From NCBI RefSeq assembly GCF_000974765.1, contig NZ_BBWU01000042.1, positions 1-64,000 on the forward strand: 64,000 nt of DNA, read 5' to 3'. The number at the start of each line of letters is the position of its first letter. Position 1 is the stretch's first letter. Positions 6,650 to 55,357 of the stretch are shown piece by piece. The DNA is from Sphingomonas changbaiensis NBRC 104936. Lineage in GTDB: Bacteria; Pseudomonadota; Alphaproteobacteria; Sphingomonadales; Sphingomonadaceae. The notes under the pieces were generated by a model. That model was not told the DNA's origin. It did not search any database and was given only the letters and a program-made list of their open reading frames with translations. The position numbers and the translations under genes were made by a program.

Positions 6650-7288
6650 TCACAGCCCCCCAAAGCCGTTCGCTTCGAGCGAAGTCGAGAAGCGTGTCTC
6701 GACTTCGCTCGACACGAACGGACTCAGGTTGACCGACCGTGAGGACGCGAGCGCGAAACCCTGATGCGTTGCCGCCAGCACAATCCCGCCCGCGGTCTGG
6801 TGCGCGGCGCACGCCTGCTCCAGCCGCCCCACCGATTCGGCGTCGAGCCCATTGGTCGGCTCATCGAGCAGCCAGATGTCCGCGCCGCTCGCGATCACGC
6901 GGGCGAGGGCGGCGCGCTTGCGTTGCCCGGTCGACAGCATCCGGACCGGCACCGGCGCCAGATGGGCGATTCCCATCGCCTCCATTGCCGCGGGAAGCGT
7001 ATCGCCACGCCGGTCCAGCCGGGCCCAGAAGCGCAGCGCCTTTTTCAGCGGGAGATCGCGGTCGAGCGCCACATTCTCATCCGCCAGCGCGACCATACCC
7101 TCGCGCACGACTGTTCCGGCCGCCGCTTCGAGCAAGCCCGCAGCCACGCGCAACAGGCTCGACTTGCCCGCGCCGTTCGGACCGGTGACGATCGCCGCTT
7201 CGCCGGGGCCGAGTGCAAACGACACGCCCTCGAACAGCAGCCGCCCGCCGCGCCAGCAGGCCACGTCATCGAAGCGGAGAGAACTCAC
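6650..7288 (-). CDS. ccmA: Cytochrome c biogenesis ATP-binding protein CcmA, with a repeat-encoded C-terminus
   Basis: The ATPase subunit of CcmAB. In the 212-residue product I see Walker A GPNGAGKS (36-43), signature LSTGQRKRAALAR (118-130), Walker B IWLLDEP (138-144) and the switch His in ATHQ. The normal family end would fall near SSRSVNL (182-188). Residues 190-208 are encoded by the dispersed palindrome at 6666-6721 and are not part of the usual fold. The GTG at 7288 overlaps the stop of the upstream protease gene (GTGA), so translation is coupled. Confidence 0.93.
   Translation of the reverse strand: MSSLRFDDVACWRGGRLLFEGVSFALGPGEAAIVTGPNGAGKSSLLRVAAGLLEAAAGTVVREGMVALADENVALDRDLPLKKALRFWARLDRRGDTLPAAMEAMGIAHLAPVPVRMLSTGQRKRAALARVIASGADIWLLDEPTNGLDAESVGRLEQACAAHQTAGGIVLAATHQGFALASSRSVNLSPFVSSEVETRFSTSLEANGFGGL
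6666..6721. repeat. Dispersed palindrome, copy 1 (inside the ccmA 3' end)
   Basis: A 56-bp, shortened copy of the repeat with arms CCGTTCGnTTCGAGCGAAG and the complement. It lacks about 17 nt of the central loop found in the other copies. It lies wholly within ccmA and encodes residues 190-208. The same first-arm reading frame (PFVSSEVE) is used by the copy in ribD. Confidence 0.9.
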
Positions 7289-9546: not shown

Positions 9547-9619
9547 CCGTTCGTTTCGAGCGAAGTCGAGAAACGACAGCTCCGAGCCTGCGCTTCTCGA
9601 CTTCGCTCGAAGCGAACGG
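9547..9619. repeat. Dispersed palindrome, copy 2
   Basis: A 73-bp copy with arms CCGTTCGTTTCGAGCGAAG and complement around an unpaired centre. It fills the gap between the convergent peroxiredoxin and ridA genes, 5 nt from one stop and 7 nt from the other. The position suggests a shared bidirectional terminator or transcript-end stabiliser. Confidence 0.9.
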
Positions 9620-16914: not shown

Positions 16915-16988
16915 CCGTTCGTTTCGAGCGCAGTCGAGAAACGCGCGTGCGTCCCTGCCGGCTTCTCGACTTCGCTCGAAGCGAACGG
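16915..16988. repeat. Dispersed palindrome, copy 3 (between tolR and tolA)
   Basis: A 74-bp copy lying in the 97-nt gap between the tolR stop and the tolA start, inside an otherwise compact operon. It could stabilise or attenuate the transcript and lower TolA relative to TolQR. Confidence 0.9.
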
Positions 16989-26442: not shown

Positions 26443-26515
26443 CCGTTCGCTTCGAGCGCAGTCGAGAAGCGAGATCCCGGAGCAGCCGTTTCTCGACTTC
26501 GCTCGAAACGAACGG
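26443..26515. repeat. Dispersed palindrome, copy 4
   Basis: A 73-bp copy between the convergent pyk and lipoprotein genes, 14 nt from one stop and 7 nt from the other. It has the same placement as copy 2. Confidence 0.9.
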
Positions 26516-48769: not shown

Positions 48770-48842
48770 CCGTTCGTTTCGAGCGAAGTCGAGAAACGGC
48801 CGCTCCGAGCCAGCGCTTCTCGACTTCGCTGGAAGCGAACGG
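48770..48842. repeat. Dispersed palindrome, copy 5
   Basis: A 73-bp copy filling the 94-bp gap between the aldo/keto reductase stop and the folA start, with one arm mismatch. It is 12 nt from the folA ATG and likely affects the folA transcript leader. Confidence 0.9.
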
Positions 48843-51624: not shown

Positions 51625-51975
51625 ATGTCCCGCTTCCGCCGCTACAACCCGCTGTCGGGCTTGAGAGACCTGCGTCTCTTCCTCCATTCGCGCCAGAAGC
51701 ACGAGTTGGTGTTCGCATTCCTGGCGGTGCTGACGACGGTCGTGGTGATCACCGGCTTCCTGGTTGATACGAACGACCTGAAGGCGCCCTATGAACGCGA
51801 CATCCAATATGTGCAGAGCTGGCCGCTGAACCGCACCGACGCGGAGATCGTCGCCGCGCAAAAGGCCGACATGAAGACGCGCGCCGCCGAGGAAGCGAAG
51901 GAAAAGGAGCGCCAGGCCAAGAATCATGCGGAGCTGAAGCGGCTCGACGACGCGCTGACCCGGTGGGGCTTCTGA
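51625..51975 (+). CDS. Hypothetical membrane protein
   Basis: A 116-residue protein with one helix (about 28-47) and a long charged C-terminal tail rich in Lys, Glu and Ala (about 75-110), likely helical. It has the sequence RDIQYVQSWPLNRTDAEIVAAQ. It resembles a conserved sphingomonad gene before ribD, but I know no function. The ribD start overlaps its end by 13 nt. Confidence 0.72.
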   Translation: MSRFRRYNPLSGLRDLRLFLHSRQKHELVFAFLAVLTTVVVITGFLVDTNDLKAPYERDIQYVQSWPLNRTDAEIVAAQKADMKTRAAEEAKEKERQAKNHAELKRLDDALTRWGF

Positions 51976-53006
51976 GCGATCGGGACGACGCGCGCTGGAT
52001 GGGCGCGGCGCTGGCGCTGGCCGAGCGCGGCCGCGGCCGGACCGCACCCAATCCCAATGTCGGCTGTGTAATCGTCAGGGAAGGCCGCGTCGTCGGACGC
52101 GGCTGGACGCAGCCGGGCGGACGGCCGCACGCCGAAGCGATGGCGCTGGCGGAAGCCGGCGCGGAGTCGCGCAGCGCGACTTTGTACGTCACGCTGGAAC
52201 CGTGCGCGCACCGTAGCGAGCGCGGGCCCGCCTGCGCCGACCTGATCGTCGAAGCCGGGCTGGCGCGGGTCATCGCGGCGGTCGAGGACCCCGATCCGCG
52301 CACCGCCGGCGGCGGGTTCGAGCAGCTGCGCGACGCCGGAATCGCGGTGAGCAAGGGTGTGCGCGAGAGCGAAGCGCTGCGATCGTTCGCCGGGTTTATC
52401 GCGCGTCGGCGCTATGGGCGGCCGCATGGGACGCTGAAGATCGCACTGTCGCTCGACGGCCGCATCGCGCTTTGCGACGGGAGCAGCCGCTGGATCACCG
52501 GCGAACCCGCTCGCGCTCACGCCCATCTGGAGCGCAGCCGCCACGAAGCGATCCTGGTCGGGCGCGGGACTTGGGAAGCGGACGCGCCGAAGCTGGACGT
52601 GCGGTTGGAGGGGCTTGAGGATCGGTCGCCTCAGCGCGTCGTCTTGACCTCGAGTCCGTTCGTTTCGAGCGAAGTCGAGAAACGGTCAGGTGCCGAGCAG
52701 TCGCTTCTCGACTGCGCTCGAAGCGAACGGGGTTGGACTGCGATCGGTTCGCCCGACCAAATCGCCACTCTCCCCGCCGACCACCTGCTCGTCGAAGGCG
52801 GCGCCGAGACCGCCGCCGCTTTCCTCCGCGCCGACCTGATCGATCGCCTGCTCCTCTACCGCGCGCCGATTCTGATCGGCGCCGGCAAGAGCGCGATCGG
52901 CGACATCGGTCTTGCGGACCTCGCCGCCGCGCACGGGTGGTGGGAAATGGTGGACGCGCGCCAGCTTGGCAGCGACCGGCTCGAAGTCTACGAGCGGCGC
53001 CGATAA
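51963..53006 (+). CDS. ribD: Riboflavin biosynthesis deaminase/reductase RibD, with a palindrome-encoded insert
   Basis: A bifunctional enzyme: the N-terminal cytidine-deaminase fold has H56-A-E58 and C81/C91 as zinc ligands, and the C-terminal reductase starts near LKIALSLDGRIA. Residues 232-256 are encoded by a 75-bp copy of the dispersed palindrome (52656-52730), exactly 25 codons with no frameshift. The insert sits after RVVLTSS and before WTAIGSPDQIATLPADHLLVEGG, in a loop region of the reductase. The GTG at 51963 is the most likely start. Confidence 0.93.
   Translation: MGLLSDRDDARWMGAALALAERGRGRTAPNPNVGCVIVREGRVVGRGWTQPGGRPHAEAMALAEAGAESRSATLYVTLEPCAHRSERGPACADLIVEAGLARVIAAVEDPDPRTAGGGFEQLRDAGIAVSKGVRESEALRSFAGFIARRRYGRPHGTLKIALSLDGRIALCDGSSRWITGEPARAHAHLERSRHEAILVGRGTWEADAPKLDVRLEGLEDRSPQRVVLTSSPFVSSEVEKRSGAEQSLLDCARSERGWTAIGSPDQIATLPADHLLVEGGAETAAAFLRADLIDRLLLYRAPILIGAGKSAIGDIGLADLAAAHGWWEMVDARQLGSDRLEVYERRR
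52656..52730. repeat. Dispersed palindrome, copy 6 (in frame in ribD)
   Basis: A 75-bp copy, 2 bp longer than the usual 73 bp and the only one fully inside the middle of a coding region. Its length is a multiple of three. The first arm encodes PFVSSEVEKR, the same frame as in ccmA copy 1. Confidence 0.93.
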
Positions 53007-54759: not shown

Positions 54760-54845
54760 CGTCACCCCGGACTTGATCCGGGGTCCACCTTCTTGGCGGG
54801 GTGGAGCGAGAAAAAGGTGGATGCCGGATCAAGTCCGGCATGACG
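54760..54845. repeat. Palindrome of the CGTCACCCCGGACTTGATCC type
   Basis: Imperfect long arms, starting CGTCACCCCGGACTTGATCC and ending AAGTCCGGCATGACG. It lies between ribB and ribH, 10 nt before the ribH ATG; its end abuts the ribH ribosome binding site GGAGGG. Confidence 0.88.
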
Positions 54846-55284: not shown

Positions 55285-55357
55285 CCGTTCGTTTCGAGCG
55301 AAGTCGAGAAACCGGGCACGGCAGCCAGCGCTTCTCGACTTCGCTCGAAGCGAACGG
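55285..55357. repeat. Dispersed palindrome, copy 7
   Basis: A 73-bp copy starting 6 nt after the ribH stop, upstream of the P450 gene. It may end the rib transcript. Confidence 0.9.

Follow-up and report, generated by a model that had tools for sequence, protein, structure and literature searches.

Palindromic repeats of several families at one loop of RibD in sphingomonads

Introduction

Palindromes lying in frame within coding sequences were first reported as a feature of Rickettsia. According to a review (PMC10969869, referring to Ogata et al. 2000, 2002), the Rickettsia palindromic elements are about 150 bp long, and nearly half of their copies are located in open reading frames. They are in-frame palindromes in unrelated housekeeping genes, to whose products they add a peptide.

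The GTAG- and CGTC-tagged REPs are short palindromic units, often arranged as inverted dimers, which are dispersed and in most cases located immediately 3' of coding sequences (Di Nocera et al. 2013, PMC3733652). CGTC REPs were reported in alphaproteobacteria including S. wittichii, S. alaskensis and S. chlorophenolicum, and they have no dedicated known transposase (PMC3733652). Some intragenic REPs are in frame and encode 20–30 residues, and in a single case, recB in two Xanthomonas, different REPs were found at about one site (PMC3733652).

Here we analysed a stretch of 64,000 nucleotides from Sphingomonas changbaiensis (the window), in which a 75-bp palindrome lies inside the gene of a vitamin B2 enzyme, RibD. 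The case suggests that some protein sites repeatedly take up selfish DNA without being broken.

Results

The ribD gene and its insert

The gene of the bifunctional deaminase/reductase, ribD, is located at 51963..53006 on the plus strand, starts with GTG and encodes 347 aa. In a profile search the product matches TIGR00326 with E=9.4e-84 and a score of 281 bits (cut-off 156), and judged by this profile it is an intact RibD. The best structural matches of its model are PDB RibD chains with Z about 30. The palindromic element, a REP-like dimer of 75 bp without strand assignment, is located at 52656..52730 and runs CCGTTCG...CGAACGG. Two inverted arms of 29 nt flank a spacer of 17 nt. The left arm, CCGTTCGTTTCGAGCGAAGTCGAGAAACG, occupies 52656..52684 on the plus strand and is stop-free in all six frames, and the inverted right arm occupies 52702..52730 on the minus strand. 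The element is in frame and encodes residues 232–256 (PFVSSEVEKRSGAEQSLLDCARSER). This assignment, with codon boundaries on both sides, had been made in the initial annotation, and counting from the GTG start agrees with it: codon 232 begins at 52656 and codon 256 ends at 52730. A stop or a frameshift had been named there as counter-evidence; in the sequence given, the reading frame is open throughout, the insert included.

In the AlphaFold model of RibD (345 residues, in which the insert corresponds to residues 230–254), the mean pLDDT is 79, and the values fall below 50 at 232–253. The insert is located between the strands 222–226 and 256–259. It is thus predicted by the model to be a disordered loop between two strands, in agreement with its earlier tentative placement in a loop of the reductase domain. 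The corresponding region of E. coli RibD has extra residues, which indicates that its length varies naturally.

The repeat family and its copies inside genes

In the 3.2-Mb genome, 84 occurrences of the 19-nt half-site pattern were counted, and none of its reversed control. Therefore, the repeat is not due to chance. At or near these 84 exact half-sites, 66 copies were identified, and more diverged copies elsewhere would escape this count. They consist of 57 inverted dimers of 56–83 bp and nine single arms, and the lengths across the family range from 31 to 83 bp. The element had been described as a dispersed repeat, which these counts confirm. The lengths given earlier for the intergenic copies were reproduced on re-measurement: 73 bp at 9547..9619, 26443..26515, 48770..48842 (12 bp past a stop codon) and 55285..55357 (9 bp past a stop codon), and 74 bp at 16915..16988. 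At 54760..54845, after a ribBA-like ORF, the window also holds an intergenic CGTC-type repeat, and its family is the one occupying the RibD loop in a related genus (G033).

To place the flanks of each copy, we used a codon-likelihood model with the window as training sequence. According to this placement, 10 of the 66 copies are in frame inside genes, 17 are flanked by convergent genes, 4 by divergent genes and 35 by co-directional genes. In 33 of the 35 co-directional cases, the upstream gene terminates before or within the element, mostly 6–35 bp ahead of it. In a few of them the upstream frame enters the element and ends in it or just after it, producing C-terminal tails. Such tails are found in a ccmA-like ORF, whose 3' end is overlapped by a 56-bp copy at 6666..6721, and in a ccmD-like ORF at L140:1474-1529; both are cytochrome c maturation genes.

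For the ten copies inside genes, about 15% of the total, a single open coding frame is shared by both flanks. The hosts are ribD, mnmG and coaBC, the latter two confirmed against solved structures, and seven genes which, from recognition of their sequences rather than a profile search, we take to be ileS, tsaD, addA and homologues of sir2, iscS, phytoene synthase and hydantoinase/5-oxoprolinase. If frame were irrelevant, the probability that all ten are in frame would be about 1 in 59,000 (one third raised to the tenth power), a value that is indicative only, as the set was chosen by the open-frame test. The real evidence for frame selection is the absence of frameshifted copies. Among the 66 copies, classified by the codon model and the stop positions, none was found to split a gene out of frame; this test could overlook a frameshifted copy in a decayed gene. 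Selection for frame after insertion, as suggested in the initial annotation, is consistent with this result. The accompanying view that a length divisible by three singles out the ribD copy does not hold, since 13 of the 57 dimers are multiples of three. Intragenic copies of 56, 73 and 76 bp are likewise in frame. Thus, it is the net change at the site that counts, not the element length alone.

Taken together, the ten genes read the arms in all three frames. This indicates that no single peptide is selected genome-wide, and speaks for tolerance. The GTTCG-type left arms in RibD and CoaBC all read one frame (PFVSSEVE...). This could mean selection of the peptide at these two sites, and it may also reflect avoidance of very basic alternatives. 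Open reading in all six frames was observed for 70% of the dimers, a set of related and hence non-independent copies; the share was 24% among dinucleotide shuffles and 10% among random stretches of 73 bp. Arms that are stop-free in six frames would make it likelier that a copy persists within a coding sequence.

The RibD loop in related genomes

RibD profile matches were obtained in 380 of 398 Sphingomonadaceae genomes. Among the approximately 150 best matches listed, most have a span of about 945–966 bp, while in 19 it reaches about 990 bp or more. The 19 long loops were read, so that the following counts, taken from the best-ranked RibDs listed, are lower bounds. A long inverted repeat is present in at least 15 RibDs of five genera, no more than about 15 nt from a common point (G000, the window genome, G001, G003, G005; G033, G214, G259, G327, G357; G267, G385, G424; G247, G434; G407). 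Relics, one arm in G405 and a decayed arm in G154, were counted apart, and the long loops of G334 and G278, which showed no palindrome when read, were left out. The RibD match G057:C4:7337-8287 has one in-frame TGA, a possible frameshift or pseudogene.

Four types of insert were distinguished. The CCGTTCG (GTTCG) type is found in G000, G005, G247, G385 and the relic of G405. The CGTC REP type is found in G003, G033, G357, G327, G259, G424/G267, the outer part of G214, the relic of G154 and probably G001; the inserts of G033, G357, G327, G259, G424 and G267 start with CGTC. The CTCCGCG type is found in G407 and in the inner part of G214, and the CCCTCTCCC type in G434. In the G214 loop (L101), the CTCCGCG palindrome is apparently nested in a CGTC-type dimer. 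The inserts of G003, G001 and G033 are dispersed in their own genomes, with 24, 65 and 62 matches, respectively, and a further G357-type copy is located within 20 kb of the G357 ribD. The inserts start about 3 to 15 nt past the last conserved codon and differ in phase.

Orthologues lacking the insert residues and matching on both sides had been expected, and most sphingomonad RibDs are indeed of this kind. The closest relatives, however, are not empty: four members of the window's genus (G000, G001, G003, G005) carry four different inserts. The different palindromes in the closest relatives indicate a recurrently occupied site and not a single insertion.

A RibD tree was built without the loop. 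On this tree, the presence of an insert requires at least nine gains or losses, and the insert type requires 12 changes when empty is included as a state. The well-supported branches alone force four changes for the GTTCG type and five for the CGTC type. Within the window's genus, G001 (CGTC-like) branches first, then G005 (CCGTTCG variant), and then G000 (CCGTTCG) with G003 (CGTC). The tree and the differing starts and phases favour repeated events at the RibD site.

CoaBC, MnmG and the syntenic background

The interdomain linker of CoaBC carries dimers or arms of the same repeat family in G000, G001, G033, G032, G334, G327 and G385, and is short in others. In the CoaBC loci L178-L193 and L152:860-2089 the linker is repeatedly filled, and G003 and G005 keep an apparent 16-nt footprint of the element. 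The MnmG insert of the window genome is extra compared with the solved structures; G000 has its site occupied, and in G003, G001 and G005 the insert is absent. CoaBC therefore shows a RibD-like recurrence and MnmG does not. That recurrence follows the site is in line with structural tolerance. In a synteny scan, informative mainly over 46.8–64 kb (a small background) and blind to RibD because both sides are filled there, no other conserved gene with an insertion of 10 residues or more was found. The sole exception was one poorly aligned end with a stop.

Discussion

It is likely that REP-like elements insert widely, and that purifying selection leaves the in-frame ones at permissive loops and linkers. 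The ribD insert would be a member of a REP-like family of inverted repeats, non-autonomous and spread through the window genome. Its copies are located mostly just past stop codons, and some lie in genes. Those that cause a frameshift, introduce a stop or disturb a folded core would be lost by purifying selection, and in-frame copies in a loop or linker would persist and be translated, presumably as neutral peptides. The RibD loop after strand 222–226 and the CoaBC interdomain linker would be permissive sites that are filled repeatedly, the former by several palindrome families.

We infer the movement itself, since neither a Y1 transposase nor a target-site duplication was found in the window genome. 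PF01797 gave no match in G000, where control profiles did match, and flank matches of 2–9 nt around the 57 dimers are about as frequent as with shuffled flanks. Outside the arms, a weak CCC-AAAT preference or extension is seen. RAYT-like Y1 transposase genes are present in relatives (G005, L202:1736-2425 and L203:845-1528; G032, L204:1687-2394), and on reading these loci the window-type element was not found to flank them. Directly upstream of the L202 gene lies a long inverted repeat with GGGACAGTCCC, unrelated to the repeats under study.

Three other explanations were considered. That the insert is an ordinary coding expansion resembling the repeat, or an assembly artefact, is highly improbable. 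The genome is a draft of 53 contigs, which leaves room for an artefact, but the half-site counts against the reversed control already refute the coding-expansion form, and other dispersed repeats occupy the same place of RibD in close relatives. A second explanation is that the insert is itself selected, as a flexible peptide or as a strong mRNA/DNA hairpin in ribD that tunes expression or co-translational folding. In G424 and G267 (L093, L097), which have a common insert, the arms show 0 differences in 60 positions compared with 119 in 1310 (9%) in the flanks (Fisher p=0.008, for this one pair), and the spacer shows 5 in 31. The single reading frame prevailing at RibD and CoaBC points in the same direction. 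However, identical runs of about 100 bases are present elsewhere in this pair, most RibDs have no insert, the insert sequences are wholly different between sister species, and the copies are located in ten unrelated genes in three frames. We consider selection of the insert unlikely.

The differing inserts might also descend from one early ancestral palindrome in the RibD loop. Recombination, nested insertion and deletion would since have put later elements in its place and kept the site filled. The g1 subclade of G000, G001, G003 and G005 and six of the seven g29 genomes are occupied, as this would predict. The nested palindrome of G214 and the CoaBC of G003 and G005, in which apparently the final 16 nt of one arm of the element remain as a deletion footprint, indicate that turnover does happen. 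Against a single origin, the starts of the inserts vary by position and phase, empty sites are interspersed (G295, G364, G002), and the occupied g1, g29, g45, g118 and g52 lineages are parted by empty ones, although some of the deep forks are weak. An ancestral palindrome is thus possible but doubtful, and repeated insertion into a tolerant loop is the reading we prefer. On a more tentative reading, the RibD loop and the CoaBC linker may be standing niches for unrelated palindromes with continual insertion, replacement, nesting and deletion. Fast-changing selfish DNA would then supply the variable loop of a housekeeping enzyme, possibly with selection on hairpin or frame.

One free-living genome thus carries ten in-frame copies of one palindrome family, and the RibD loop, filled several times by four unrelated repeat families, offers natural replicates of insertion into a protein. 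They allow one to ask what kinds of site, frame and peptide are retained, and whether DNA of this sort truly yields new protein segments. Natural insertion-tolerant sites are marked in RibD and CoaBC. The results are also a warning that repeat-derived segments are present in predicted sphingomonad proteins.

Comparison with known systems

Like the CGTC and GTAG REPs, the window family is high-copy, dispersed and mostly intergenic just past stops (66 copies). Unlike them, its element starts with CCGTTCG and has no CGTC or GTAG terminal tag. The RibD inserts of several relatives start with CGTC and look like CGTC REPs. REPINs are mobilised by RAYT transposases. The inverted pair of REP-like hairpins with a short spacer, seen in 57 of the 66 window copies, is as in REPINs, whereas no Y1/RAYT gene was found in the window genome and the RAYT-like genes of relatives have no flanking element. 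With MITEs the window element shares small size, dispersal, terminal inverted repeats (29-nt arms) and the lack of a gene of its own; it differs in that no target-site duplication was detected and no parent transposon was identified for it.

The resemblance to the Rickettsia palindromic elements proposed in the initial annotation stands in kind, with in-frame copies in several unrelated genes (ten copies), but the nearer known relatives are REPs. In contrast to the Rickettsia elements, the window family measures 31–83 bp, belongs to free-living sphingomonads and is intragenic in about 15% of copies. A literature search, with most subscription papers outside its reach, gave no report on RibD inserts or on multi-family recurrence at one site, and no paper was found for the arm core sequence. 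Compared with the recB case of REPs, four families are found here at one RibD site in five genera. In-frame REPs and the Rickettsia elements are known; what appears to be new is that several families recur at a single enzyme loop.
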